Below are positions 1-44,331 of a stretch of 64,000 nt of DNA, piece after piece (the first letter of the stretch is position 1; each line of letters opens with the position of its first letter). The notes below the pieces were generated by a model, which was not told the DNA's origin, did not search any database, and saw only the letters and a program-made list of their open reading frames with translations. The stretch is from Chitinispirillales bacterium (lineage in GTDB: Bacteria > Fibrobacterota > Chitinivibrionia > Chitinivibrionales > Chitinispirillaceae): positions 186,001-250,000 of the forward strand of contig JAIRVB010000035.1 of assembly GCA_031254105.1 (NCBI GenBank), read 5' to 3'. A program made the translations under genes and the position numbers.

Positions 1-1
1 T

Positions 2-1288
2 GAGGGGTTCAGGATTCGTAATTTCGGAACACTGCGTGATGTTACCATTGGCAGTCTTTGGAATGACAAAGGCACTGGTGAACTGACACCCATGACTGCC
101 GTGATCGGAAAGAACGGAGTAGGAAAAAGCACGTTATTTGATGCTTTTGGGTTCTTATCTGAATGCTTAAAATTTGGCGTTGAGGAAGCCTGTGACAAAC
201 GCAATGGATTTGAACATATTGTTTCGCAGGGTATTGACGAACCTATTGAATTTGAAATCTATTATCGTGAAGAACATAACGCACGTCCTATTACTTATGA
301 AGTCTCTTTTATGTTAGACAGTCACTCCCGTCCTTACGTCAAAAGCGAACGTTTGCGACAACGCAGAGAAGGACAACCTAAAGGCTGGCCATTTTCATTT
401 TTGATCCTTGAAAACGGTCGCGGTTGGGTTTGGAAAGGAGAATCTGAAGGAATACAAATACAAGAATCTGCTGACCAAAATGCATTACAAACACTTGATA
501 AATTAATGCATGAGAAGTCCGAAGAGTCCAAAGAAAGAGAGTTTTTAGAATTAGAAGATAACCGAAAGTTAGGTATAGCAACGCTGGGGGCATTAAAGCA
601 ACACCCTAGGATTTCCGCTTTCAGGCAGTTTATTGAGGGGTGGTACCTTTCGTACTTTACGCCGGATGCAGCCCGCAGCTTGTCTTTAGCAGGCCCTCAG
701 AAACATTTGAATATACATGGCGATAATATTGGCCCTGTCGTACAGTTCATGGAACGCGACCATCCAAAGCAGTTTGCAAGAATTCTTAAAGACATTGCCG
801 GAAAGATACCCGGGATTGATAAAATCTCCACAGAACGCATGTCCGATGGCCGCTTGTTATTAAAATTTAACGATAAAAGCTTCAAAGACCCATTTTCCGC
901 TCAACAGATGTCGGACGGTACATTGAAAGTATTTGCGTATCTGCTTTTGCTATCCGACCCAACACCGCCGCCTTTTATCTGCATTGAAGAACCGGAAAAC
1001 GGGCTTTATCATAAATTACTTGAAGTCCTTGCAATGCAGTTTCGTACTCACGTTACTGATGGGGAAAGTAAATCGCAAATATTTATTACGACACATCAAC
1101 CATATTTTGTTGACGCACTTGAACCAAATGAGGTTTGGATTCTAGAAAAAGGCGCAGATGGATTCTCAAAGATACGCCGCGCAAGTGAATACCCTATTGT
1201 TCAAGGATTAGTCAGTGAAGGACTTCTTCTAGGCGGGCTATGGTACAGCGATTATTTTGAGGGAGGCGTAAACCATGGTGCACTTTGA
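2..1288 (+). CDS. ABC/AAA-type ATPase, 5' end outside window (RloA/AriA-like)
   Basis: The reading frame is open from base 2, and the residues before the first ATG (position 92) read as a normal ABC-type N-terminus (RIRNFGTLRDVTIG), so the gene starts upstream of the window. The Walker A motif GKNGVGKST follows directly. Near the C-terminus are an ABC-signature-like segment (MSDGTLKVFAYLL), Walker B (FICIEEPENGL) and an H-loop (TTHQPYF). This is the layout of single-chain AAA_15/AAA_21 ATPases found in two-gene anti-phage modules. The 3' end overlaps the next gene by 14 bases, so the two are translated as a unit. Inferred role: ATP-driven sensor that controls the downstream TOPRIM-like protein. 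Family assignment is firm; defence function is inferred from architecture and neighbours. Confidence 0.8.
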   Translation, partial: EGFRIRNFGTLRDVTIGSLWNDKGTGELTPMTAVIGKNGVGKSTLFDAFGFLSECLKFGVEEACDKRNGFEHIVSQGIDEPIEFEIYYREEHNARPITYEVSFMLDSHSRPYVKSERLRQRREGQPKGWPFSFLILENGRGWVWKGESEGIQIQESADQNALQTLDKLMHEKSEESKEREFLELEDNRKLGIATLGALKQHPRISAFRQFIEGWYLSYFTPDAARSLSLAGPQKHLNIHGDNIGPVVQFMERDHPKQFARILKDIAGKIPGIDKISTERMSDGRLLLKFNDKSFKDPFSAQQMSDGTLKVFAYLLLLSDPTPPPFICIEEPENGLYHKLLEVLAMQFRTHVTDGESKSQIFITTHQPYFVDALEPNEVWILEKGADGFSKIRRASEYPIVQGLVSEGLLLGGLWYSDYFEGGVNHGAL

Positions 1289-1943
1289 ATTTCTTACAGA
1301 AGACCAATCGAGTGCAAAAGCAATGGTAATACTTATCGACAAGTTATTTGGCGATAAAATTACATACAATATCCATTCTTATAAGGGATTGGGACACACT
1401 CCAAAAAATTTACGTCCTAAAACTGATGCGAAAAAACGGATACTTCTTGACAGATTGCCGGGATTACTGCGTGGTTATGGGCACAACCCCAATTGCGGGA
1501 TTATTGTAATACTGTGCGATTTGGATAAAAGAAATGAAGAACTATTTCGTGCTGAACTACAACAAGTGTTAGATTTCTGTAATCCAAAACCAATAACGCT
1601 CTTTTGCCTTGCCATTGAAGAATTTGAGGCATGGTATCTTGGAGATTTAAACGCGATATATACAGCATACCCATCAGCAAATCAAAGTGTTTTGAATAGT
1701 TATAAAAATGATTCTATTTGTGATACATGGGAGTTTCTTGCTGACGCTGTTTGTAAAGGTGGAAGTATTGCTCTAAAAGAAAAAGGATGGCAGGCTATTG
1801 GAAAGCAGAAATCAATATGGGCGGAAGAAATCACACCTCATATGAATATTAATGATAACATTTCTCCAAGCTTTATGTATATGTGTACGCAATTACGAAA
1901 TGTTAGCGGACAAACGATACAAAATATAGAAAATACTCATTAA
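1275..1943 (+). CDS. DUF4276 family protein (TOPRIM-like, predicted nuclease)
   Basis: 222 residues. The start ATG lies inside the end of the ATPase gene, behind a good ribosome site (GGGAGG at 1261-1266). The N-terminus has an acidic residue after the first strand (FLTEDQ, E9). Later comes a hydrophobic strand ending in DLDKR (D82 and D84), and then IEEFEAWYLGD. Together these give the E...DxD pattern of TOPRIM-fold metal binding, as in OLD-type nucleases and the DUF4276/DUF4435 families. Such proteins regularly follow an ABC-type ATPase gene, as here; AriA/AriB of PARIS is the best known comparable arrangement. Nuclease activity and an effector role are inferences. The family call rests on motif pattern and context without a database search. 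Confidence 0.7.
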   Translation: MVHFEFLTEDQSSAKAMVILIDKLFGDKITYNIHSYKGLGHTPKNLRPKTDAKKRILLDRLPGLLRGYGHNPNCGIIVILCDLDKRNEELFRAELQQVLDFCNPKPITLFCLAIEEFEAWYLGDLNAIYTAYPSANQSVLNSYKNDSICDTWEFLADAVCKGGSIALKEKGWQAIGKQKSIWAEEITPHMNINDNISPSFMYMCTQLRNVSGQTIQNIENTH

Positions 1944-1991
1944 AAATTTGGGGTATTTTAACGGTTTTTGTTATGGTTCTGGTCAATCTGT

Positions 1992-2016
1992 TAAATAAAG
2001 GATAACTGTATATTAT
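1992..2016 (+). repeat. 25-bp inverted repeat, copy A (upstream of carbamoyltransferase)
   Basis: A 25-base sequence containing AAAGGATAACTGTATATTAT ends 14 bases before the carbamoyltransferase ATG. The same 25 bases occur, without mismatch, on the opposite strand at 8163-8187 directly before the STAND gene. It carries an AAAGGA Shine-Dalgarno-like core and an AT-rich tract, so it could be a shared promoter/leader element or the terminal repeat of a transferred module. Confidence 0.85.
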
Positions 2017-2030
2017 CGTAAGGATATGCC

Positions 2031-3734
2031 ATGAAAATCACATTAGGCATCCATGTTGGACATGACCGTGGAGTTGCCTTAATCAAAGATAATGTTGTTA
2101 TTGGAGCAATATCACAAGAAAGAATAGACCGTATAAAATATTCCCCATCGTCAAATATTCCATTTGATTCTATTGACAAGCTACTTGGATACTGTAATAT
2201 AAAATTATCAAATATTTCATGCATAGGGATTTCATATGATGGACTTGAAGGGCTATCTGCTTTGAACTTATATCACGAAGAATTTTTGGAGCATTATCAA
2301 TGTGAATATATTCCTATGTATCTTGTAAGTCACCATGAAGCTCATGCGTATTCGGCTTTTTTTGCTTCAGGTTTTTCAGAAAGCCTTATTTTTGTTGCTG
2401 ATGGTGGTGGTGATTATATAAATGGCAAGCAAGAAGCTGAAAGTTTATTTGTTGGACAAAATGGAAAAATAAGTTGCATCTCGCAACGTTTACAGAATCC
2501 CATGATAAGAAAACTTGGTGATAAAAGAAACTATATAATTCCACTTATGCCAGATGTAATAAAGGAAGCTAACATAAGTATAGGGAGAAAATATGAACAG
2601 ATCACTTACTTGTTAAACTTGGGTAGGGGTGGTTCTGGAAAAACTATGGGTCTTGCATCATACGGGAAGTCATTGATTAACTTTAAACAAGAAGATTTTT
2701 CTGATTTTAATTTTTCTGTAAAATATAAAGATATTCTTGAAAACGTTTTTGCTATGGCAACACTATTGGGAGACACATTTAATACGTTTATAGAAAAAGA
2801 AAGAGCGAATATAGCTGCAACAGCACAAGCTTTTGTGGAAACATCAATTATTGGTTTATTAGACAGCGTTTTTTCGCAATATCCCTGTAAAAATCTTTGT
2901 TTAGCAGGTGGAGTTTTCTTAAATTGCATAGTTAATCAAAAGATACTAAATAATTTTAATTTGGATAGTCTATTTGTAATGCCTCCTGCTGGAGATGATG
3001 GGCAAGCTATTGGGGCTGCTTTTTTTGCCCATTGCCGTCATTTTGGTTTTAAAAATAAATTTGAAATAAAATTACCTTATTTAGGTCTTTCGTATTCAAA
3101 TCAAGATATAGAGACTACACTAAAAAGTATGAATTTAAATTACTCGTTTTTTGATGATGACGATTTATCAACCCAAATAGCTACTAGTATTGCGGATAAT
3201 AAGATTGTTGCATTACATAGAGGAAGAACTGAAATTGGGCCAAGGGCTTTATGTCATCGAAGTATTATCACAAGTCCTATCAATCCAAACATGAAAGATA
3301 TTCTAAATAATCGTGTAAAACACAGGGAATCATTCAGACCATTTGGCCCTACAGTAATTGCTGAAGAACAATCCAAATATTTTGATTTACGTTGTACATC
3401 AGACTTTATGCTATTTGCGGCAGATGTAAAAAAAGAATATAGAGATAAATTAGTTGCCGTCACGCATATAGATAATACAGCAAGAGTCCAAGCTGTTAGC
3501 AAACAACAAGAACCTTTTGTTCATTCGTTATTACAAGAGGTAAAAAAAATAATCGGTTTTCCGATTATTTTAAATACTTCCTTTAATATTGCAGGGCAAC
3601 CTATTGTGGAAAGTCCGTTAGATGCAGTTAAAACTTTTCTTACTGCTGATATTGATGTATTGGTTATTGGAAATTATGTTTTAAAAAAACATAACAACTT
3701 GAATGATACTGTTCTGAAAGTAGATGCGTTATGA
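2031..3734 (+). CDS. NodU/CmcH-family carbamoyltransferase
   Basis: 567 residues, the normal length for the family. Enzymes of this type (TobZ, CmcH, NodU) make carbamoyl-adenylate from carbamoyl phosphate and ATP in a Kae1-like N-terminal domain, then pass the carbamoyl group to a hydroxyl of a small molecule or sugar. Visible marks: N-terminus GIHVGHDRGVALI, the metal-binding type motif HHEAHAYS (101-108), VADGGGDY (122-129), LCLAGGVFLNC in the middle, and a C-terminal domain with HRGRTEIGPRALCHRS and FRPFGPTV. The stop overlaps the start of the next gene by 4 bases (ATGA). The substrate cannot be read from the sequence, and no sugar or antibiotic biosynthesis genes are nearby. Instead it sits among nuclease/ATPase genes, which is unusual. 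Confidence 0.88.
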   Translation: MKITLGIHVGHDRGVALIKDNVVIGAISQERIDRIKYSPSSNIPFDSIDKLLGYCNIKLSNISCIGISYDGLEGLSALNLYHEEFLEHYQCEYIPMYLVSHHEAHAYSAFFASGFSESLIFVADGGGDYINGKQEAESLFVGQNGKISCISQRLQNPMIRKLGDKRNYIIPLMPDVIKEANISIGRKYEQITYLLNLGRGGSGKTMGLASYGKSLINFKQEDFSDFNFSVKYKDILENVFAMATLLGDTFNTFIEKERANIAATAQAFVETSIIGLLDSVFSQYPCKNLCLAGGVFLNCIVNQKILNNFNLDSLFVMPPAGDDGQAIGAAFFAHCRHFGFKNKFEIKLPYLGLSYSNQDIETTLKSMNLNYSFFDDDDLSTQIATSIADNKIVALHRGRTEIGPRALCHRSIITSPINPNMKDILNNRVKHRESFRPFGPTVIAEEQSKYFDLRCTSDFMLFAADVKKEYRDKLVAVTHIDNTARVQAVSKQQEPFVHSLLQEVKKIIGFPIILNTSFNIAGQPIVESPLDAVKTFLTADIDVLVIGNYVLKKHNNLNDTVLKVDAL

Positions 3735-4816
3735 AGTGGATCCAAAAATGGATTGCTGAACAGTGGAATAAAGAGGGCATAGCATATTCAAAAACAACGT
3801 ATTTGTATGCCACAATTGTGTGGTTTGCGGTTGGTTTGTTACCACTATTTGGTTATCCAGCACCTTTTTCTGGCAATAAGGGTATATTGCATTTGGGTAT
3901 ACTCATTTTAATTGTGTTGTTTCTCATAATAGCAACATGTATTATTATATTCTTTGTCAAAAGAAATAAAAATGATATTATTGCTAATGCAACCAAAATG
4001 TTTAAGAAAGAGAAATACCAAGATATATTGACATTGAGAAGAAGATGGAGCCGCTTTTTATGGATTGAAGGAAAACTTTTCGAAAGATTAAAACTTGGAG
4101 AAATTGCGAAAAAAGCAGCAATAAATTTGGAAAAGAATAAAGATTTGACTGAAATATATATTGACGACTTAGGCTGGACAAATGTACCCATAGATTGCAA
4201 CAAAGCAAAAGGAATTTTGGAATCTGGATTGGAGTGTGCTAAAAAAATAAATAATAATGATGATAAAAACTACTGGATCGCTAGAGCAAAAAGACATTTG
4301 GCAGGTATTGAATTAGAAAATATGGAATATGGCCAAGCAGACATATTAATTAATGATGCTATATCATTTGCAAATAATATTGTAGAGGAACAAAGAAAAA
4401 AAGAAATGCTTGCAGGAATTTACCACATGAAAGCATTCAAAACTTTAAAAACAAGTGGTCAAGATAAAGAAAAAATAGAGAAGGCTTTAGAATATGCAAA
4501 AAAATCAAAAGAGTTGTGTTCTGAACGAGATAAAATTCGCTATATAAGAATTTATTCCTTAGAGGGGTGTATTTATGAGGTAAAAGGAGATATAAATAGA
4601 GCCGAACAGCTATATCGTACCGGTTTAAAAGAGTCTAAGGATTTAGGACGAATAGATGAAATTATTAAAAATAGTTTTGGTTTGGCAAGGATTTCAGATG
4701 ATGAAAAAGAACAAAGACAACATTTGAGAAAGGCTGAAAAATTACTTAAAAAAACACCTGTTTCGTATCTTATAGACGAAAAAGAAATACGGTTAATGAA
4801 ATATAACATATTTTGA
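3731..4816 (+). CDS. Membrane-anchored TPR-like protein
   Basis: 361 residues, coupled to the carbamoyltransferase by a 4-base ATGA overlap. Two hydrophobic segments lie near the N-terminus (about 25-42 and 53-76). They are followed by a basic stretch (VKRNK) and an all-helical, Lys/Glu-rich cytoplasmic part with TPR-like features, for example GCIYEVKGDINRAEQLY and EKALEYAKKSKEL. No enzymatic motif is visible. The coupling suggests the protein scaffolds, senses for or localises the carbamoyltransferase. I do not recognise a named family; the TPR assignment comes from helix periodicity and A/Y/G spacing. Confidence 0.65.
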   Translation: MKWIQKWIAEQWNKEGIAYSKTTYLYATIVWFAVGLLPLFGYPAPFSGNKGILHLGILILIVLFLIIATCIIIFFVKRNKNDIIANATKMFKKEKYQDILTLRRRWSRFLWIEGKLFERLKLGEIAKKAAINLEKNKDLTEIYIDDLGWTNVPIDCNKAKGILESGLECAKKINNNDDKNYWIARAKRHLAGIELENMEYGQADILINDAISFANNIVEEQRKKEMLAGIYHMKAFKTLKTSGQDKEKIEKALEYAKKSKELCSERDKIRYIRIYSLEGCIYEVKGDINRAEQLYRTGLKESKDLGRIDEIIKNSFGLARISDDEKEQRQHLRKAEKLLKKTPVSYLIDEKEIRLMKYNIF

Positions 4817-4891
4817 GTATAGGCATACTATGTATTGTAACACAGCTAACTAAAATAACTTTTTAATAAATGATAAACCAAACAACAAAAA

Positions 4892-7800
4892 CTATGAAAT
4901 AGGGATGAAATATTTTGTCTTAGAATCACGCAACAAGTGTTTAGGTGGATTATCAATAAACAGCAACTCTTTTTGAGAAGCTTTTTTGTATTCCTTTTTT
5001 ATGCTTCTATTTGAGTTTGAACATATATACCTACAAGCAGGCTTTACACAGTTAAAATCACAAAAACTTGTAGAGTTATAGTAGCTTACCAAAGACATTT
5101 TTTGGTAAAACGCAGTTTCTCCCTTAATAGATTGATAGAAAGATCCTATATTACTTAGTGCCAGAATATTTCCAGAACACAAATCAAGTTCACCTAAATA
5201 CAAAAGATTTTGCATTTTTAGCATTGTATGTACTGTTTCAAATGTACGCATTTGAATATCATCACTTTGGTTCAAACGTGACTGTATAATAGCACGAAGA
5301 TTATAAAATTTCCATATATGTACAGGAATTCCAAATTTTATACTGCTATCAATGCCTCTATCTATAAAATTATGAGCTTCATCAAACGATTTTCCATCTC
5401 CAACAGAAAGGAATGCAGTAACAGCCAGTGCAGAATATGATCGTATCATTGAGTTGGAATAATTATTGTTAATGGCTTGTTTTAGCAATGAATGCGCTTT
5501 TTCATGACTCTCTTTTAAATCTGCTGTCTTACCATGCAGTAAATCAAGTAGTAACAATGAAATTCTACTACTACATAGTATTCTCTTGGATGAACCATCA
5601 TTTAAAACTTCTCCAACTTTTAATAAACTATCATAGGCAACCTCATAATCATTGTAGAAATTGATTTTACTCTTATTTAGGTATGCTAAAGCGAGTAAGC
5701 CATTATCTGATTTTTTTTCAGCTTCGCGGAATGATAAAATGTTGAAATGAGTTGATAGTGATTTGCAATTAAATCTCTTATAAATGCTGCATAGCCTATC
5801 AAATAAATCAAATGTAATGTCAGTACTCATTGAATTCGGAAAAATATTCCACTTTGCAAATAATTTTTTTAAAAGCAATTCGCTGTCACTTAAATATCCA
5901 GCATTGATAAGGCTATGGGCTTTTTGCTCTATTATTGCATCTTCGATATCATCACCATCAAAAAACTTATTTGTTTTTATGAGTTTAAGAGCTTCGTTGC
6001 AATCGACAATTGCTTTTGCTGGGGTGTAATGATGTAATGATATATATATCTTGACCTTCAGAATATTTTTAAGCAATTCTTTTTTAATTTTGTTTTTATG
6101 AAATAATTCCCAAATACAATTTAAATAGTCATATAATTCGATATCAATATTGATTGCCGAAAGATTAGGTAAATCTTCAAGGTATTCAATATAATCAGTA
6201 AAACATTCTTTGGCATATAGAGTGTCTCCATTCCATAAAGCAAGGCGCCCCTTCTCATGTATATTTATTCTATCTAAAAGAAAAGGCTTGTCTGCAAAAA
6301 TATGGTTTGCCACATGTTTTTTTAAATCGGTTTTCGTTTCTATATTATTCTTAAAAAACAAATACATACTTTCATGGATAAAAGCAATATTGCCATCGCC
6401 CCCTATTTGAATAAAGCGGCGCAGGGTTAAGAAATCCAAAAGGGTGGTATCCTCATTGAAGTAGCGCACTGCATTGGAAAGAGACTGCCTCCCACCGATT
6501 ACGCTTAGAGTTAATAAGTAATCGTGCATTTGACGACCGTTTTCGAGAGAAGTAAGATGCTTTAACCGCTGTTCGTAAATATCACTTACCTTTTGGGGAA
6601 TATATGTTTTTAAATTAAATGTACTAACGTTTATAATTCCAACAGTATTGCGGTTAATAATTTCTACAATTTTTGATTCCAATAAATATTCAATAAATTG
6701 TACAATAAAAAGCGGATTGTTACGGCTCATATTGCATATTTTTTCGAGTACGATTTGGGGTACTTGAGTTATTATGAAGCGTACAAGTTTGATTGTATCT
6801 TCTGATGATAGCGCCTCCAAATTCCAACCGCTTATTGATTTATTTTCTTTGCACCATTCCACAAATGAGTAATATGCAACGGTTCCGACACTATAATCAG
6901 TTCGTCCGCACAAGACTATATTCACGCTTGAACTGCAACCTTCAAGAGCTTTAATTTCTTCCCAAAGCTTATCCGGAGCATTATGACAGTCATCAATAAA
7001 TAGAATTGCTCTTCCATAACTAAAACTATTTTCACAATTTTTAACCATTTGAGCAAGTGTTGAATAATTGTTAGTTTTTTTCAAATAATAGTTCTTTATT
7101 AGATAGTTTTTTATCTCATGTAAAAAGCTATCGCTATTTTTTTTAACAACAAAAAAACCAAAATTAAATCCTTGCCCATTAAGCCGTTTATATATTTCTT
7201 GAAAAACACGCGTTTTACCCACTCCTGCTTCACCCCAAATGTAATGAATTTTTGAAGACTCGGAGTCTTTAAAATAACTATCAAAATGATCAATACAAGA
7301 TTTGTGGCCTTCTCCGAAAAGTGGGGTTTCAAAAAAGGCAGTCATGTCACTGCCCTTAATGTGTACCTGTGTTTCAGTTTCGCCGATTTTTATACCAAAA
7401 AGCAAATCGTCAATTTCATCCGTAAATATGCGGACAATTGAAACTTTTTTGATATATGTGCCGTAGGCTTTAATAACGAAAGAAACACAGGGTTCCTCCA
7501 TACTCCAGTTGCGGTCGCTTAAAAGTTTTTGTGTTGTCAGGTTTTCGTTTTCAGAGACATTATGATATAGTAAATATATGTCATAAGCTTTTTTGATACT
7601 TTCCGTTCTTGTCATAATTTGATATTCAGCAGTTAGACAAGGTTGGTTAATTTTTGGCATTTCACCAATAGTACGTCCGAATTGTTCTAAGGCAACAGAT
7701 AATATTTTGCGGTCTATCAATACAAATGTTATACCGCATAATTTCAATTCATTTTCTACGCAATAATATGTATAGGGGGTGATTGTAGCATTGGTAACCA

Positions 7801-8164
7801 AAACAAAATAATCTGGTTTTTCTTCTTTTATTCTCGAAACATTACCCATTATTCGTTCATGTTTTATACTATTTGAATCTGTACTTTTGCATTCAATGAA
7901 TATTTTAATTGATTCTTTATCTTCAACATAAAAATTTTGATTTAGGATTCCACGCAAATCAACGTTTGATGTGATTACAGCATCTCTTCCATCGTCACGA
8001 CTTTTGGAAGTAGGGTGTATCTTTACATTTGGCGAGAAATAAGGTGATAATTGTTCTGTAATAACTTTTACTATAAAAACCTCAAATTCATCTCCGAGCG
8101 AAGAACCCAGAGCCCAGTTTTGTTCTTTTTGTTTTTCACCTATTGTTCTTACAGAACTTAACAT
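4892..8164 (-). CDS. STAND NTPase with N-terminal PD-(D/E)XK nuclease (Avs-like)
   Basis: 1090 residues. Residues 20-150 form an Mrr/restriction-like nuclease: E26, then DDGRDAV (D61), then IECKS (E91, K93), matching E...D...ExK. The central part is a STAND-type NTPase: Walker A GEAGVGKTR (311-319), Walker B AILFIDDC (386-393) and a sensor-like IVLCGRTDY. A winged-helix region follows, and from about residue 690 a long helical repeat part. Nuclease-NTPase-repeat is the layout of antiviral STAND (Avs) proteins, in which the repeats sense a phage protein and the nuclease kills or blocks. It is transcribed toward the carbamoyltransferase pair and starts inside copy B of the 25-bp inverted repeat. 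Avs-like is an architectural inference; no named Avs type is claimed. Confidence 0.8.
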   Translation of the reverse strand: MLSSVRTIGEKQKEQNWALGSSLGDEFEVFIVKVITEQLSPYFSPNVKIHPTSKSRDDGRDAVITSNVDLRGILNQNFYVEDKESIKIFIECKSTDSNSIKHERIMGNVSRIKEEKPDYFVLVTNATITPYTYYCVENELKLCGITFVLIDRKILSVALEQFGRTIGEMPKINQPCLTAEYQIMTRTESIKKAYDIYLLYHNVSENENLTTQKLLSDRNWSMEEPCVSFVIKAYGTYIKKVSIVRIFTDEIDDLLFGIKIGETETQVHIKGSDMTAFFETPLFGEGHKSCIDHFDSYFKDSESSKIHYIWGEAGVGKTRVFQEIYKRLNGQGFNFGFFVVKKNSDSFLHEIKNYLIKNYYLKKTNNYSTLAQMVKNCENSFSYGRAILFIDDCHNAPDKLWEEIKALEGCSSSVNIVLCGRTDYSVGTVAYYSFVEWCKENKSISGWNLEALSSEDTIKLVRFIITQVPQIVLEKICNMSRNNPLFIVQFIEYLLESKIVEIINRNTVGIINVSTFNLKTYIPQKVSDIYEQRLKHLTSLENGRQMHDYLLTLSVIGGRQSLSNAVRYFNEDTTLLDFLTLRRFIQIGGDGNIAFIHESMYLFFKNNIETKTDLKKHVANHIFADKPFLLDRINIHEKGRLALWNGDTLYAKECFTDYIEYLEDLPNLSAINIDIELYDYLNCIWELFHKNKIKKELLKNILKVKIYISLHHYTPAKAIVDCNEALKLIKTNKFFDGDDIEDAIIEQKAHSLINAGYLSDSELLLKKLFAKWNIFPNSMSTDITFDLFDRLCSIYKRFNCKSLSTHFNILSFREAEKKSDNGLLALAYLNKSKINFYNDYEVAYDSLLKVGEVLNDGSSKRILCSSRISLLLLDLLHGKTADLKESHEKAHSLLKQAINNNYSNSMIRSYSALAVTAFLSVGDGKSFDEAHNFIDRGIDSSIKFGIPVHIWKFYNLRAIIQSRLNQSDDIQMRTFETVHTMLKMQNLLYLGELDLCSGNILALSNIGSFYQSIKGETAFYQKMSLVSYYNSTSFCDFNCVKPACRYICSNSNRSIKKEYKKASQKELLFIDNPPKHLLRDSKTKYFIPIS

Positions 8165-8187
8165 AATATACAGTTATCCTTTATTTA
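8163..8187 (-). repeat. 25-bp inverted repeat, copy B (upstream of STAND gene)
   Basis: Perfect reverse complement of 1992-2016. It runs into the first two bases of the STAND start codon. Its AAAGGA would serve as the ribosome site 12 bases before ATG, a somewhat long spacing. Bases beyond the 25-bp core do not match well on either side. Confidence 0.85.
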
Positions 8188-9951: not shown

Positions 9952-10057
9952 GAAAATACCTTTAAAAGCGCGCTGACTTCTTTAAATATTGCACGTAGCA
10001 CCTGATTTTTCAAAGGTTATATGCTAATACTAAAGCATCTTTCATAAAACCAATAAA

Positions 10058-10120
10058 AAATAAGTTGGCTTTGATTCAAAATGCGATTAAAATAATGGGG
10101 GGAGTTCGTAAATTGATATA
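10058..10120. repeat. Dispersed intergenic repeat, copy 1
   Basis: About 63 bases running from AAATAAGTTGGCTTTGATTC to GGGGGGAGTTCGTAAATTG. They match 19792-19886 with few substitutions, except that copy 2 contains an extra ~32 bases. Lies in the spacer before the nucleotidyltransferase-like gene. Confidence 0.75.
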
Positions 10121-10213: not shown

Positions 10214-10948
10214 ATGTACAGAGAAGAAATGATAAAAATGCTTTACGCAATTGATGCGGAGCTTGATCAGCCGCTAAAGATTACAATTACCGGAGCTTCC
10301 GCTTTGATACTAAGAGGTAGTATCTCAAGGGCGACTTCGGATATAGACATCCTTGAAGCATCGCCGGATTTGGGTCAAGCGAAATACAGGGAAATTATTG
10401 ATAAAATAGCGGCAAAATATCACCTGACAAATAATTGGATAGACACCAGTCCCTCAGAGATGACTTTTAAGCATTTACCTGAATATCGGCCTGATTTACA
10501 AATCGTTGAGGGTGATTTTAAGTTTTTGCAGCCTTACATTATTTCTAAAGCAGACTCTGTAATTACGAAATTTGCATATTATGAGAATATCAGACAGTGG
10601 GATAAAAAAGATATAAAGGAGTTGGATTTTTCAGAAGCGGATTATAACCAACTGCGTCTAAAATTGGATAAACTCAGCAGCATTGATCCAGAACGGGCTT
10701 TACGGATTGAAATTGAATTCAAAGCATTGAAACCAGAATTTATAAAAACGCCGGAAGGATTTCTGTACAGCAATAGTAACGAAATCGCTGTTTACGCTCA
10801 GCAAAGATATGGAATTATACTTGAAGAAGAATATCTTAAACAGTTGAATGAAGATGCTCAAAAATCAGACTCCAGCGTTTTCCTTAAAGCAATATTGCAA
10901 GTGGATTACAGAGCGCTTGAAACAATTGTCAGAAATAAAAGGGCATGA
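10214..10948 (+). CDS. DUF6036-like nucleotidyltransferase, possible toxin
   Basis: 244 residues, ribosome site AGGAGAGG, ATG start. The N-terminal third carries a minimal nucleotidyltransferase core: GASALILRG, then SDIDIL, giving the G-S and DxD pattern of pol-beta-type transferases, with a later acidic segment (YRPDLQIVEGDF). This resembles DUF6036/AbiEii-like proteins of type IV toxin-antitoxin modules. The downstream gene overlaps by 4 bases (ATGA), as usual for such pairs. Alternative: an enzyme for antibiotic or tRNA nucleotidylation. The toxin role is inferred. Confidence 0.6.
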   Translation: MYREEMIKMLYAIDAELDQPLKITITGASALILRGSISRATSDIDILEASPDLGQAKYREIIDKIAAKYHLTNNWIDTSPSEMTFKHLPEYRPDLQIVEGDFKFLQPYIISKADSVITKFAYYENIRQWDKKDIKELDFSEADYNQLRLKLDKLSSIDPERALRIEIEFKALKPEFIKTPEGFLYSNSNEIAVYAQQRYGIILEEEYLKQLNEDAQKSDSSVFLKAILQVDYRALETIVRNKRA

Positions 10949-11703
10949 TAATGGAACTGAAACAGCCAATTAACCCCGAATTAATAGATGAATACTACGC
11001 CAAGTGGATAAAGCTGGGGTGGTATGCTGCCGGCAGACCGTATCAGGGAAGTGTTGACCCTGAAAAGCTGATTGTAGAAACTACGCATATAGGACGTTAT
11101 GAGGGAAGACTTTTCAAGGCGATGCTTACCTGGGTCAGGGATTATAATGATCTGATAAATGTTCAAAAACTTCTGCATTATATCAATGACGCTGATCAGC
11201 CAGTTTTAGGCGCTGTGGTGGAAATTGCCGCAAGCGCTGCCGGAGCATTGCCGCGAATGAAAGCAATCCTAAAACGTTGCCAGCCGCTTAAAGATGCTGA
11301 GGTTTTGTTTAAAGAAACCGATGAGTTCGGAGTATACGAAAGAAATCAAAAAGAATTCAGCAAAAAAGAATATCTGAAATGGGGATTGTACTGCACCATG
11401 ACGGAGTTCTATGAAGACGCAATGTATAACCGTCACTATGTGCTGATGAATAACCCTTTGCTTGCTATACGGGCATTAATCGGGCCTAACATCCGTTCCG
11501 AGATTTTATTTGAACTGGAGCACCGTTCACAAATAAGCATAACAGCCCTAAAAGAACATGTGGGATACGCATATTCTGCTGTCTACACAGAAGTAATGAA
11601 TCTTATCCGAAACGGATACCTTTCAAATGAAACAAATGGGAAAAAACAGATGATAACAATGAAAAAACCATTTGCTAAATATTTGAAAAGTATTCCTGTT
11701 TGA
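10945..11703 (+). CDS. Winged-helix protein coupled to nucleotidyltransferase
   Basis: 252 residues, overlapping the previous stop by 4 bases; a second in-frame ATG lies at 10951. The N-terminal two thirds are helical without a motif I know. The last ~70 residues (SEILFELEHRSQISITALKEH... TEVMNLIRNGYLSNE) look like a winged helix-turn-helix, suggesting autoregulation by DNA binding. In a toxin-antitoxin reading this is the antitoxin/regulator, though here it follows its partner where many antitoxins precede. Confidence 0.6.
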   Translation: MIMELKQPINPELIDEYYAKWIKLGWYAAGRPYQGSVDPEKLIVETTHIGRYEGRLFKAMLTWVRDYNDLINVQKLLHYINDADQPVLGAVVEIAASAAGALPRMKAILKRCQPLKDAEVLFKETDEFGVYERNQKEFSKKEYLKWGLYCTMTEFYEDAMYNRHYVLMNNPLLAIRALIGPNIRSEILFELEHRSQISITALKEHVGYAYSAVYTEVMNLIRNGYLSNETNGKKQMITMKKPFAKYLKSIPV

Positions 11704-11722
11704 ATTCGGAGAGCTTAATGAA

Positions 11723-11821
11723 ATGGGTCAGGAAGAACTTTTTAAAAGAAGTTCCGAATTGGTGCGTCTGCGTGAATATACACAAAAAAGTCAGGATTCA
11801 GCGTCATCTGCGGTGGCTTAA
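11723..11821 (+). other. 32-codon ORF, possible gene remnant
   Basis: Reads MGQEELFKRSSELVRLREYT and then a short Ser/Ala-rich tail. The amphipathic, charge-rich composition looks like true protein, and a GGAGAG lies 11 bases upstream. It may be a very small gene or the end of a deleted one, lying between two convergent modules. Low certainty. Confidence 0.25.
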
Positions 11822-11830
11822 AAAACTGAA

Positions 11831-13030
11831 CTATCCTTTCAAAAGCCAATCCAAAGCGTTCAAAATATTAATTCCCTCATGTACAGAATCCGGATCGGGG
11901 TCAATGTGAAGAAGTATTTTTGGAAAATTATCCTTTACATTCGTTAAAACGGAAACTTCGCGTTCAAAAGTAGCATTGTCCCGAATCGTTAAGGCTACTT
12001 GATAATATTCAGTCTGTCCCAGGGCGGAAATTGCCACAAAGTCGATTTCCTGAGTTCCTGCTTTTCCAACAGAAACTTTATAGCCGCGTCTTAATAGCTC
12101 CAGATAAATTACATTTTCAAGTACAAAACCAAAATCGCTCTTTTCGTTATTCAGCAGATAATTTCTGAAACCTAAATCAGCGATATAATATTTTTCAATG
12201 GTTTTCAGGTGTTCTTTACCTTTAATATCAAAACGCGACGCTCTGTAAAACAGAAGGGAATCAACAAGGCCCCCTATATAACTTTCCAATGTGTTTACAG
12301 AGATTTTGCGCCCATGACTTGTTAAGGTATCCGCTATTTTTTTCGTGGAATTAAGAGAACCTATATTGCCTGCCAAAAACTTCACAACTTTTTCCAAAAC
12401 ATCCGGCGCAGCGATTCTTTTTCTGGAGACAACATTTTTAAGTAAAACCGTATTGTAAATTCCACCGTAGTATTCGCGAATCTCCTTGTAACTGTTCTCC
12501 CTGTTTATCAGGTAAGGCAGCGCGCCCTGTGTTATGTATCTGCTGTACAGATCGTATTTTGACAAATCTTTATAAGAATCTCTGAATTCGGCAAACGAAA
12601 GCGGAAATATTGGGATTTCAATGTATCTGCCGGAAAGCAGCGTCGCAAGCTCGCCGGACATAAAGAATGCGTTTGAACCTGTTATATAAATATCACAGTT
12701 TTTTCGCAAATGCAAACTATCTACAACTCTCTCAAAACTTGCCACTTCCTGAATTTCATCTAAAAAAATGTAATACCGCGTTTCATCATCTTTGATCTTT
12801 GAGGTAACATACTCATAAAGAGCGTGATATTCCTTTAGACGCTCAAAAGCCAAATCCTCAAAATTCAATGATATTATCTGCTCCTCTTTAACCCCCGCAG
12901 CAATCAATTTCTTTGCGAAATTCTGCAAAAGCGTAGACTTGCCGCATCTGCGAATCCCGGTGAGTACCTTTATGATCGGTTTTTCAGAATATGAAGCAAG
13001 CGTTTCTAAATATTTCTCTCTTATCAGCAT
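11831..13030 (-). CDS. AAA ATPase with C-terminal DUF4143 domain (1 of 4)
   Basis: 399 residues. N-terminal AAA_14 domain: Walker A GIRRCGKST, Walker B YYIFLDEIQEV, sensor ITGSN followed by LSGRY. The C-terminal DUF4143 part holds EIDFVAISALGQTEYYQVAL, an acidic-D...QxA arrangement like a PD-(D/E)XK core. The family is abundant in anaerobic gut bacteria; its biological role is unproven, with links to nucleoid or mobile-element functions proposed. Closest relative here is the gene at 15845-17083 (same GELATLLSGRY stretch). The start follows an AAAGG site that lies within a cluster of TGAAAAAA half-sites, suggesting self-regulation. Confidence 0.85.
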   Translation of the reverse strand: MLIREKYLETLASYSEKPIIKVLTGIRRCGKSTLLQNFAKKLIAAGVKEEQIISLNFEDLAFERLKEYHALYEYVTSKIKDDETRYYIFLDEIQEVASFERVVDSLHLRKNCDIYITGSNAFFMSGELATLLSGRYIEIPIFPLSFAEFRDSYKDLSKYDLYSRYITQGALPYLINRENSYKEIREYYGGIYNTVLLKNVVSRKRIAAPDVLEKVVKFLAGNIGSLNSTKKIADTLTSHGRKISVNTLESYIGGLVDSLLFYRASRFDIKGKEHLKTIEKYYIADLGFRNYLLNNEKSDFGFVLENVIYLELLRRGYKVSVGKAGTQEIDFVAISALGQTEYYQVALTIRDNATFEREVSVLTNVKDNFPKILLHIDPDPDSVHEGINILNALDWLLKG

Positions 13031-13038
13031 TTGAAACC

Positions 13039-13143
13039 TTTTTTCAGTTGATTGAAAAAAATGTGTGGATTAAAAAGTTTTTTCAGTCCATTTTAAAAAA
13101 TATATGAACGCGAAAGTTTTTGCAATACATTGAAAAAACTTTT
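13039..13143 (-). promoter_or_regulatory. Clustered TGAAAAAA half-sites (operator candidate)
   Basis: Two nested inverted repeats lie just upstream of the ATPase start: TTTTTTCA-6 bp-TGAAAAAA (13039-13060), and a 13-bp perfect pair AAAAGTTTTTTCA (13073-13085) / its complement (13131-13143). All four arms share the octamer TGAAAAAA. The rest of the gap to 13398 holds a weak CTCAGT/ACTGAG hairpin (13209-13231) and no supported gene. Confidence 0.5.
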
Positions 13144-13398
13144 GAACGTTGCCAAAAAATGTAAACCACGTGATGTTTCAGATAGCCAATTAGCTATATA
13201 GTCAAACTCTCAGTGTAATCGGGTGACTGAGTGTGCTGAAGCAGAATTGCTCTAACAATAAATCTGTACGATGCCATAGTAAAGCCTCTGCATGTTTAAA
13301 CGGTTATCTTTTGGGTTAGCCTTTTATTAATTTTTTATAAGAGAGTTTCATCGCATTTATTGTTGAAGGAAAAAGGATTTACGAATGGTGGAAGCGTA

Positions 13399-13986
13399 AT
13401 GATATTCTACATTGCAGATTTGCATCTTGGACATAAAAACATAATTAAATTTTGCGAGCGTCCGTTTTCAAGCGTTGAAGAAATGAATAAAACGTTCATT
13501 GAAAATTGGAACGAAGTTGTTGATGAGAGCGATACAGTCTATATTATCGGTGATTTCGCATACCGTTCCGCTTTGTCTACGAAACCTGTCCTCGAAAAGC
13601 TTAAAGGGATAAAGCATCTGATAACAGGCAACCATGATAGGGGATGGATGAAAAATATCAAACCGGAGGAATATTTTGCCTCAGTTTCGCCATTGGCTGA
13701 GATTGACGATGGTGATACACATGTGATACTTTGCCATTATCCGATGCTAAGTTGGAACAGGGCGGCTTACGGAGCTGTACATATTCATGGACATATCCAT
13801 AACAGTATTAAAGGGCGTACGATCGCGATTTTAAAAGATATGAACGCATATAATGCGGGGGTGGATGTAAACTATTTTAAGCCTGTAACTTTAGAACAAT
13901 TAAAAGTCAACAAAGAAACGTTTTACAAAAGATATGATACAGCCACAAAATGTTTAGAATTAACGAAAACGGAAGAGAGTGCATAA
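13399..13986 (+). CDS. Metallophosphoesterase (calcineurin-like)
   Basis: 195 residues from the ATG at 13399, chosen over an upstream in-frame TTG because GGTGGAAG precedes it and the protein then begins at the first strand of the fold. Metal motifs in order: DLHLGH (D and H), IIGDFAY (GD), ITGNHDR (GNHD), LCHYPM (H) and HIHGHIHN (GHxH). This is a small stand-alone Mn/Fe phosphoesterase of the MJ0912/YfcE-like type, probably acting on phosphodiesters or nucleotides. It stands alone, with a second phosphoesterase gene 184 bases downstream. Confidence 0.85.
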   Translation: MIFYIADLHLGHKNIIKFCERPFSSVEEMNKTFIENWNEVVDESDTVYIIGDFAYRSALSTKPVLEKLKGIKHLITGNHDRGWMKNIKPEEYFASVSPLAEIDDGDTHVILCHYPMLSWNRAAYGAVHIHGHIHNSIKGRTIAILKDMNAYNAGVDVNYFKPVTLEQLKVNKETFYKRYDTATKCLELTKTEESA

Positions 13987-15844: not shown

Positions 15845-17083
15845 ATGTCAGAAAATTGGAATGAACTCCGAAGCCATATAGAGCGCCCGGAATATTTGGA
15901 TTTCCTTACAAACTGGAAAGATGAGGATATTATCAAAGTAATATCCGGTGTCCGCAGATGCGGCAAATCTACGCTTTTTGAGATATACAGGCAGTACCTT
16001 GTTAAAAATGGGGTTAAGAGCGAGCAGATTGTAAGCATAAATTTTGAGGAATTTGATTTCGGCCATTTGCAGGACGGCCGTAAGCTTTATGATTACGTGA
16101 AAAGCAAGACGCAGGATAAACAAAAATACTATATCTTTTTGGACGAGATTCAAAATGTTAAAGAATTTGAAAAAGTGGTTGATAGTCTATACCTTAAAAA
16201 AAATCTTGATATTTACATCACCGGCTCAAACGCTTACTTTTTGAGCGGGGAACTTGCGACGCTTCTTTCGGGAAGATACGTTGAACTGAAAATGCTGCCG
16301 CTCTCGTTTAAAGAGTTCGCCTCAACACGGGATGAAAAAAATGGCCGCGTTCTTTACAATGAGTATCTTAAAACTTCTTTCCCTTATGCGATTACGCTTA
16401 ACGCTGAAAAACAGCGGCAGTATTTAGATGGAATCTATTCAAGCGTGGTTTTAAAAGATATTGTAACACGGCTTGCGGTAGCGGACGCAGCGACATTGGA
16501 ACTTGTGATACGGTATTTGTACGCGGAAACCGGAAATATCCAGAATATCAGCAAAATCGCTAATACCCTTACAAGTTATGGTAATAAGGTAAGCGACAAA
16601 ACAATATCCCGCTACATTAACGGTATTGAAGACAGTATGCTTATTTACAAGGCAAACCGCTACAATGTTAAGGGGCGTAAAGTATTTGCGAACAACGCGA
16701 AATATTATGCGGTAGATAACGGGCTGAGACGCTTAATAGCGGGGGACAGGAGCGAGGACTACGGCCATATTTTAGAAAATATCGTTTATTTAGAACTATT
16801 GAGACGCGGGTATCAGGTCTATGTGGGAGTTGTGGACGATCACGAAGTTGACTTTTGGGCGAAGAGGTCAAACGGAGAGCAGCTTTACATACAAGTCGCT
16901 TTTAACACGGAGAAAAAAGAGGTTCTTGAAAGAGAACTGCGCTCTTTGGAAGAGGTAAAAGATCAGCACCCGAAATTATTGCTTACAATGGATGAGATAC
17001 TGCCGGAGCAGAATTTTAACGGTATTATCAAGACAAGCGCGCTAAAATGGCTTTTGGGGGAATCTCGCGATACTTTAGTGTAA
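15845..17083 (+). CDS. AAA ATPase with C-terminal DUF4143 domain (2 of 4)
   Basis: 412 residues, ribosome site AGAGGAAT. Walker A GVRRCGKST, Walker B YYIFLDEIQNV, sensor ITGSNAYFLSGELATLLSGRY; the C-terminal DUF4143 has HEVDFWAKR followed by QLYIQVAF. It is clearly paralogous to the gene at 11831-13030, on the opposite strand about 4 kb away. The 3' end overlaps a truncated DUF6088 gene on the other strand, so the end of this gene marks a recombination junction. Confidence 0.86.
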   Translation: MSENWNELRSHIERPEYLDFLTNWKDEDIIKVISGVRRCGKSTLFEIYRQYLVKNGVKSEQIVSINFEEFDFGHLQDGRKLYDYVKSKTQDKQKYYIFLDEIQNVKEFEKVVDSLYLKKNLDIYITGSNAYFLSGELATLLSGRYVELKMLPLSFKEFASTRDEKNGRVLYNEYLKTSFPYAITLNAEKQRQYLDGIYSSVVLKDIVTRLAVADAATLELVIRYLYAETGNIQNISKIANTLTSYGNKVSDKTISRYINGIEDSMLIYKANRYNVKGRKVFANNAKYYAVDNGLRRLIAGDRSEDYGHILENIVYLELLRRGYQVYVGVVDDHEVDFWAKRSNGEQLYIQVAFNTEKKEVLERELRSLEEVKDQHPKLLLTMDEILPEQNFNGIIKTSALKWLLGESRDTLV

Positions 17084-19627: not shown

Positions 19628-19791
19628 GAAATAGAGCCTTTGCCAGCCGTACTTGACAACGCTAAACAAAAAAAACGCTGATAGGAGCGCGAATGCCATT
19701 TGTAGTGAACGGAAGCCAAATCTATTTGCCTTTTATAGGCATATATCTGTAGGAAAAACACGCCCAGCAAAAGCGGCCACAAAACTATGTG

Positions 19792-19886
19792 AAATAAGTT
19801 GACTTTGATTCAAAGTACCATTAAATTAATGGGGGAGTTAATGAGGGGAGTAACGGGTTAATGGGGGGAGTTCATAAATTGATATA
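19792..19886. repeat. Dispersed intergenic repeat, copy 2
   Basis: Matches 10058-10120; the centre has gained ~32 bases, made of repeated TTAATGGGGGGAGTT-like pieces. The surrounding spacer 19628-19955 otherwise shows nothing I can name. Confidence 0.75.
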
Positions 19887-43458: not shown

Positions 43459-44331
43459 CTAAAAAAGATCCAAATACTCACGAAGTTTCTTTAAAATTTC
43501 ATTTGGATCTGTAACACCTTGTTTTAGTAAATTCTCAACAGTGCTTACTGTCTCTTTCTTACCCTCCGCCAATCCCTCTTTCCTGCCGTCAAACTTCCCG
43601 CTATGGTATGACGTTCGTATTGAGTTGCGTTCGTAAAGGGTTTGGTCTAAATAGTGGAGATAAGCGTTCTTATCTTTTTCCGTCATGTTGTCGAAAATGA
43701 GTCTCTCTCTTGCTTCTTTAAGGCCGCGCGCTGTAAAATATTCCGGTATCTCAGTATTTTTAAGATAGTACATCCATTCATCAAGACTGTTTTTAGCCGC
43801 GTTATCAAAGTCATTAACGCAGAGGATATAATACTCAGGATATAAATCCTGCACTCTTTCCTTAGCGAAAAACTTTTTTTGCTTCTCATTCAGCTGAAGC
43901 ACGGTATTGCTGTGAATGCCGCGGTACTCCGTAACTCCATGATACACGTAATCCGACCCATCGCCCATGTCAAAATAAAGGATATTGATATGATATACTT
44001 TACGGACTTTACTGTAGTCATCCCCTGATAAGATATGTTCGGTTATAGCTTTTGAGACCCCATAAAGCATCCGCAAATAATAATCTACCTCCGCATTGTT
44101 CTGAATCTCAATAATAAGAAGTTCTTTCCTGCTGTTCTCTACCAGCATATCTACGCGGTTGAACTTGTCTTCAAAATGCTCCTGATTGGCCTCGCTCTCT
44201 TTAACATTAATGATTTTGATATCATCATTCAAAAGAACAGACAGAAAGCCTTCCAAAACCGTATGGTCAGCTTTATTGCGAAGCAGACGCTTTATAGCCC
44301 AATCAAACCGGATTAATTTTGGCTCTTTCAT
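43459..44331 (-). CDS. Rpn-like PD-(D/E)XK nuclease
   Basis: 290 residues from the ATG at 44331 (GGAG upstream), preferred over a TTG at 44400. Starts LIRFDWAIKRLLRNKADHTV, typical of Rpn/PD-(D/E)XK transposase-like proteins. Nuclease core FNRVDMLVENSRKELLIIEIQN (D...ExQ). The C-terminus has KFDGRKEGLAEGKKE and a helical end. Rpn proteins are recombination-promoting nucleases; some act in anti-phage defence. It shares an unusual upstream element with the fic gene 27 kb away. Confidence 0.85.
   Translation of the reverse strand: MKEPKLIRFDWAIKRLLRNKADHTVLEGFLSVLLNDDIKIINVKESEANQEHFEDKFNRVDMLVENSRKELLIIEIQNNAEVDYYLRMLYGVSKAITEHILSGDDYSKVRKVYHINILYFDMGDGSDYVYHGVTEYRGIHSNTVLQLNEKQKKFFAKERVQDLYPEYYILCVNDFDNAAKNSLDEWMYYLKNTEIPEYFTARGLKEARERLIFDNMTEKDKNAYLHYLDQTLYERNSIRTSYHSGKFDGRKEGLAEGKKETVSTVENLLKQGVTDPNEILKKLREYLDLF

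Follow-up and report, generated by a model that had tools for sequence, protein, structure and literature searches.

Repeats and genes at the left end of the window

The stretch of DNA analyzed here, referred to as the window, is 64,000 nucleotides long and spans positions 186,001 to 250,000 of contig JAIRVB010000035.1 (C14) from a Chitinispirillales bacterium, whose genome assembly holds 3.68 Mb in 56 contigs. Near its left end, two copies of a 25-bp inverted repeat enclose three genes (1992–8187), which together are called the module. Its parts are listed below, with the repeats labeled according to the interpretation developed in the text.

1992–2016, plus strand: putative left recombination site (outer arm 1992–2001, ATAA 2002–2005, 7-bp spacer 2006–2012, TTAT 2013–2016)
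2031–3734, plus strand: O-carbamoyltransferase with Carbam_trans_N/C domains, resembling the TobZ and GdmN chains, HHxxH at residue 101
3731–4816, plus strand: protein with an N-terminal hydrophobic stretch and a TPR-like part (weak TPR Pfam match, E 0.0085)
4892–8164, minus strand: protein with an Mrr-like N-terminal domain, a STAND-type NTPase and a long C-terminal part
8163–8187, minus strand: putative right recombination site, inverted, with the same spacer (TTAT 8163–8166, spacer 8167–8173, ATAA 8174–8177, outer arm 8178–8187)

The two copies are identical at 25 of 25 bases, exactly as an earlier note on this DNA had claimed. Ungapped extension of the pair reaches 31 nt at 94% identity; outward of the 25 bp the copies differ immediately, while inward they differ at two bases, have TAAG in common and are then unlike. 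A 23-base core, searched with up to three mismatches, occurs at only these two places in the window and in none of 100 dinucleotide-preserving shuffles, which bears out the note's view that the match is not due to chance. Between the left repeat and the ATG of the carbamoyltransferase gene lie 14 bp; at the right repeat, the inner edge and the start codon of the STAND gene overlap.

The note's gene calls (carbamoyltransferase, membrane/TPR, STAND) hold on a Pfam-type domain search, with the TPR match weak. The STAND protein matches AAA_22 and NB-ARC and carries a Walker A motif at residue 311 and an ExK motif at residue 91; its Mrr-like domain scores 20.6 bits, slightly below the cut-off of 21.

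The 25 bp of the repeat correspond to an outer arm, a core and a spacer. Among 33 ends selected by their core, most outer arms come close to TRAATRAAGG (T at position −10 in 28 of 33, G at −1 in 27 of 33), and an arm of one kind stands on the outside of every module. The spacer differs between loci and agrees at both ends of a module; the inner arm is variable and in some cases carries a ribosome-binding-like stretch. The most likely reading of the 25-bp repeats is that they are two core sites of a tyrosine recombinase.

Recombinase-linked site pairs in this genome and in other bacteria

The site pattern occurs at seven places in the genome (the reversed control gave 0 and 1 on the two strands), all of them in two loci, and each locus encodes a Xer-like tyrosine recombinase in copies that are 90% identical. 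The earlier note had proposed that a 25-mer common elsewhere in the genome would count against its reading; this check brought no refutation, with all seven sites of this type in the two recombinase-bearing loci. The repeat exists as described but is not restricted to the pair bounding the module. In order, the two loci read as follows.

C14:182808, plus strand: site, left end of the left module, followed by convergent genes for a GNAT/transmembrane (TM)-like protein and a methyltransferase
C14:184569, minus strand: site, right end of the left module, overlapping the recombinase stop codon
C14:184587–185492, minus strand: recombinase, 509–1414 bp left of the window
C14:185908, plus strand: site, followed by a gene pair, HEC-01A/B
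C14:187997, plus strand: site (left repeat), followed by the carbamoyltransferase, TM/TPR-like and convergent Mrr-STAND genes
C14:194163, minus strand: site (right repeat)
C55: plus site, ATP-grasp protein, convergent protein of 760 aa that matches AAA weakly, minus site, recombinase

The second C14 module and the C55 locus have the anatomy of the window module, with different cargo and different spacers.

Tyrosine recombinases act through the catalytic residues R, K, H-xx-R, H and Y, and the corresponding columns (R150, K174, H240, R243, H266 and Y275) are invariant in six recombinase sequences. The recombinase reaches neither the XerC (230 of 335 bits) nor the XerD (217 of 330 bits) cut-off of NCBIfam, and it also stays below that for integron integrases (85 of 265 bits). 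Two homologues in the host genome, both partial sequences, lie closer to these families: one passes XerD (345 against 330 bits) and one nears XerC (321 against 335 bits).

Among the genome contigs searched, the sole other exact match to the 23-base motif lies on a Cloacimonadota contig (L019), where the recombinase stop codon overlaps one site and an inverted site stands 4.8 kb further; the module comprises methyltransferase and SHMT-fold genes and a convergent TM/STAND-like protein. A recombinase homology search of plasmids (E ≤ 1e-40) returned nine records (five from Streptococcus, three from Aliarcobacter and one from Paenibacillus), and each of the nine has a single inverted ATAA-N7-TTAT pair whose N7 are identical and whose near end is at most 75 bp from the recombinase gene. 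The recombinase also had 13 matches in a phage collection, the nearest three of which were examined: L040 has a site pair, L039 has a single site in another arrangement, and L041 is cut by a contig end and has no pair. The build also accompanies relatives of the recombinase in faecal contigs. A further site pair occurs in G272, a genome from the phylum of L019's genome. Because the G272 recombinase is 77% identical to that of the window genome, and that of L019 only 41%, these identities suggest that the recombinase platform has been transferred between phyla.

Within the window genome's own phylum, the recombinase was found at E ≤ 1e-45 in 4 of 167 genomes, the window genome included. Contig ends interrupt the loci of the other three genomes, and sites stand at these ends in G066 and G067 but not in G020; at L031, where the recombinase stands at the contig start, there is no pair. 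In related metagenome-assembled genomes, five of seven sites lie at most 92 bp from a contig end, four of these in G066 and G067. Mixed populations at the sites are likely, as assemblies are not expected to break at a short repeat by itself. Two individual sites were also noted. One, at about 1477–1523 of L058 (G073:C18), is preceded by codons that by eye resemble the recombinase C terminus (RNRIRIF) and is perhaps a relic of the platform; the other, at L054 (G065:C295, 1–805, minus strand), leads into a pentapeptide-repeat protein, a possible further cargo type.

Several controls bear on the pairs. Across 15 loci, a pair arose in 2 of 1500 dinucleotide shuffles. A scan of spacer length at 18 loci found pairs at a length of 7 in 18 of 18 and at 5, 6, 8, 9 and 10 in none, matches at a length of 4 being the same sites read shorter; in a separate search that allowed one spacer mismatch, the module pairs listed had none. 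No pair was present at four loci with XerC/XerD-like genes (two named by NCBIfam, two placed by tree). A set of 80 IMG/VR loci was then chosen by recombinase alone. Exact pairs occur in three (L063, L066 and L067) of the eight best loci (E ≤ 3e-56, 39–51% identity over at least 238 residues) and in none of the other 72 (874,512 bases; weaker or partial matches); the probability of all pairs falling among the best eight is 0.0007 for three pairs and 0.009 for the two clean ones. L066 (methyltransferase and TM protein) and L067 (ATP-grasp and STAND-like) have convergent genes and fit the build. Elsewhere among the best eight, the contigs of L065 and L068 break off at a site, a single site is present in L064, and L062 and L069, with the recombinase at a contig end, have no pair. 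A degenerate 20-base pattern had no matches in viral contigs, and a single-protein scan of them gave no recombinase match, whereas the alignment-based search did find loci. A window site at 43974 (three mismatches) and matches in C23 and G029 were taken as chance.

Module replacement, cargo and neighboring genes

The Streptococcus plasmids of L044 and L045 have flanks that are 99.3% (281 bp) and 99.1% (5.2 kb) identical around unrelated modules, the former holding a polyprenyl synthetase and a multi-TM protein and the latter an SHMT-fold enzyme and a TPR/STAND-like protein. Their similarity ends about 11 bp inside the sites. Modules likewise differ between L044 and L046 (flanks 97.6% and 90.9% identical) and between L036 and L037 of Aliarcobacter (97.8% and 90.4%). 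Because unrelated modules change at the sites between 99% identical flanks, modules are, on this comparative evidence, exchanged at the sites. The Streptococcus modules have one spacer in common and L036 and L037 have another, as expected if equal spacers gate exchange.

We consider it highly probable that window positions 1992–8187 form one cassette of an exchange platform served by a recombinase. In this reading the repeats would be core sites for the Xer-like recombinase at C14:184587–185492, each consisting of a platform-side outer arm, ATAA, a 7-bp crossover spacer equal at the module ends, TTAT and a module-owned inner arm. Recombination between the two inverted sites of a module would flip it, and recombination with another module of equal spacer would replace it. 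The convergent cargo would set an enzyme side (carbamoyltransferase and TM/TPR-like protein) against a sensor/effector side (Mrr-STAND). Comparing the sequences of the loci shows the site anatomy, the spacer identity, the linkage to the recombinase and the replacement of modules at the sites; that this recombinase is the agent, that inversion takes place and that the cargo acts in defense, we infer. Of its two ideas, the earlier note's proposal of a transferred block with the repeats as its ends is well supported: a recombinase adjoins them, the 7-bp spacers at the module ends are equal, the genome has such sites only at such loci, and modules are replaced at the sites between near-identical plasmid flanks.

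In total, 15 distinct complete modules were counted, with the following cargo.

ATP-grasp and STAND-like: C55 of this genome, L035, L037, L048, L067
Methyltransferase and GNAT/TM or TM protein: left C14 module of this genome, L036, L046, L066
SHMT-fold and STAND/TPR-like: L019, L045
Carbamoyltransferase, TM/TPR-like and Mrr-STAND: window
Two GT2 proteins and STAND-like: L043
Polyprenyl synthetase and multi-TM: L042
SIR2-SLOG and TIR: L040

The genes of a module's two sides are convergent, their 3′ ends ranging from a 65-bp overlap to 75 bp apart. The methyltransferases of the window genome, Aliarcobacter and Streptococcus are 40–42% identical; for that of the left C14 module, a search of the 166 other genomes of the phylum set at E ≤ 1e-15 gave no relative, and the GNAT/TM protein beside it has matches at E ≤ 1e-5 in 3 of 72,556 plasmids, each inside such a module. 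The window STAND protein has no relative among these plasmids at E ≤ 1e-10, and a plasmid search with the STAND proteins of both loci of this genome gave no match. The link that the earlier note drew between a carbamoyl-transfer enzyme and a nuclease is plausible, since the cargo mostly pairs an enzyme with a membrane or STAND-like protein; this particular combination, however, was met only here.

The module at L040 resembles Thoeris (ThsA/ThsB) in pairing a ThsA-like SIR2-SLOG protein (ThsA match 2.7e-97) with a TIR protein (ThsB match 3e-7, best PADLOC match PDC-S66), whereas the window module consists of a carbamoyltransferase, a TM/TPR-like protein and an Mrr-STAND protein. This Thoeris-like pair and the HEC-01 genes beside the window module hint at a defense role of the cargo, and the window module is probably one anti-phage or other conflict system. 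The neighboring features are as follows.

1–1288, plus strand, open reading frame (ORF) start at C14:185990, 11 bp left of the window: AAA_21 ATPase, HEC-01A-like candidate defense protein, between the recombinase and the left site
1275–1943, plus strand: DUF4276-like partner, HEC-01B-like, below the Pfam cut-off
1931–1991, plus strand: outer flank of the left site; over 87 bp, 1931–2017 matches the recombinase-proximal site of C55 and its flank at 88.5% identity

HEC-01 is a candidate system in PADLOC, and the gene pair matches it strongly (6e-174 for HEC-01A, 2.5e-85 for HEC-01B) while standing outside the bounded module. The pair (C14:185905–187943) is flanked by two same-direction sites with unequal spacers, CTACATG and CTGTATA, and is absent from the equivalent position in C55; it is perhaps a separate insertion beside the recombinase.

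Other repeats were observed further into the window. Direct repeats about 9.7 kb apart (10047–10120 and 19781–19886) match over 55 nt (82%) and 28 nt (96%), the first copy standing upstream of two ORFs at 10214–11703. A 55-nt inverted repeat, 78% complementary (12922–12976 and 15929–15983), has its first arm inside a P-loop ATPase-like ORF (11831–13030) and perhaps reflects paralogous genes.

Competing explanations and relation to known systems

The alternative that survives best is a phase-variation switch, in which the recombinase flips the module so that the gene beside a stronger outside promoter is expressed, the plasmid swaps being homologous recombination in the flanks. Inverted equal-spacer sites beside a recombinase are indeed the layout of an inverton, the outer genes begin at or near the sites, and a ribosome-binding-like stretch lies inside the repeat in Streptococcus, Paenibacillus and the left C14 module. 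Relative to the recombinase, methyltransferase/GNAT modules occur in either orientation (L036 versus L046 and the left C14 module), and contigs ending at sites fit mixed orientations. This explanation is nevertheless rather unlikely: plasmid similarity ends at the sites and not at varied flank positions, the same module was seen in opposite orientation in no isolates, and a promoter scan of L042 gave 16 promoter-like sites against 22.1 in shuffles, with no excess.

It is improbable that these are true dif modules, with the sites as targets of host XerC/XerD and the nearby recombinase incidental. The ATAA..TTAT core and inverted arrangement are those of pdif sites, yet the spacer is 7 at 18 of 18 loci and never the 6 of pdif, and the pairs go with this recombinase family and are absent from all four XerC/XerD-like gene loci. 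A shared leader or operator co-regulating the module genes, the other idea of the earlier note, would account for the position of the repeat, which immediately precedes both outer genes and has the same orientation relative to each. It is very improbable and not needed, as it leaves unexplained why the central seven bases vary between loci and yet agree at a module's two ends; moreover, in distant bacteria too the repeat goes with a recombinase. Terminal inverted repeats of a transposon-like element would also enclose a gene block, but can be all but dismissed given that the three enclosed genes include no transposase match and that the same backbone position holds different content in plasmids. 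An integron was also considered and rejected: the 87-bp block around the left site has attC-like words by eye, the recombinase is below the cut-off, and the sites are inverted.

Several observations weigh against the exchange platform itself. The outer arm is weak in Streptococcus and Paenibacillus, and the pairs of the 15-locus scan had to have identical spacers. In a tree that included one XerS row and left out near-duplicate or partial rows (L029, L031, L036, L045 and L046), the support for a recombinase clade apart from XerC/XerD is moderate (86/92), and this clade does not include the Paenibacillus recombinase. The C55 recombinase and that of G020 (L031, 5′ end cut) have no site at their 3′ ends. 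The searches made revealed no inverted partner of the site at C14:185905–185927 (CTACATG), and HEC-01 misfits the simple model. The L063 pair (10321–13674) stands around genes for repeat-rich proteins, and one of its sites falls within an ORF; the pair may be due to chance and was left out of the module count. No empty platform or site was found, and inversion and exchange of the window module itself are predictions. On the side of function, several partner proteins carry only weak AAA/STAND matches, and the three window module genes match no PADLOC family at E ≤ 0.01.

Known systems offer partial parallels. Integrons have a recombinase gene with a resident place that holds different cassettes. 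The exchange platform likewise combines a recombinase with a resident cassette place, but its recombinase is far below the integrase cut-off and, in place of arrays running in one direction, it has a convergent module between two inverted sites. Tyrosine-recombinase invertons have an adjacent recombinase and inverted identical sites, as here; in the platform, by contrast, the segment holds whole genes that are replaced by unrelated ones at the same place, and inversion is only presumed.

The closest known kind is the dif module of Acinetobacter. There, the pdif site has an 11-bp XerC arm, a 6-bp spacer and an 11-bp XerD arm, C and D modules alternate, rearrangement between identical-spacer sites was shown experimentally, and two models of module movement are proposed (PMC13141974). 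The likeness lies in accessory genes between inversely oriented sites with an ATAA..TTAT core and in module replacement between plasmids (PMC13141974). Compared with what is described there, the window type has a dedicated recombinase beside the module, a 7-bp spacer, a different outer arm and a varying inner arm; its cargo is mostly an enzyme with a STAND-like or membrane partner; and C/D alternation is absent, the C14 sites reading plus, minus, recombinase, plus, plus, minus. We have not filed the window module as a dif module, since it works alike but departs in spacer length, arms and alternation. Among the matches listed in searches of a partial literature library, there was no description of an exchange platform with a dedicated recombinase.

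By analogy with the Thoeris-like module, we tentatively raise a broader possibility, itself somewhat doubtful: a cross-phylum platform that brings its own recombinase and has inverted sites coded by their spacers may swap whole two-part immune systems, in which an enzyme-made signal is paired with a STAND/TPR-like or membrane sensor-effector. The signals would then be carbamoylated, ATP-grasp-ligated, methylated, pyridoxal phosphate-made, prenylated or glycosylated, and the modules would amount to a catalogue of several undescribed signaling defense systems, the window carbamoyltransferase/Mrr-STAND module included. If this is true, an inverted equal-spacer ATAA-N7-TTAT pair beside this recombinase family would serve to find two-part conflict systems with no prior knowledge of defense genes, unrelated enzyme families would be tied to STAND-like or membrane partners, and the platform would be a self-contained relative of dif-module exchange.

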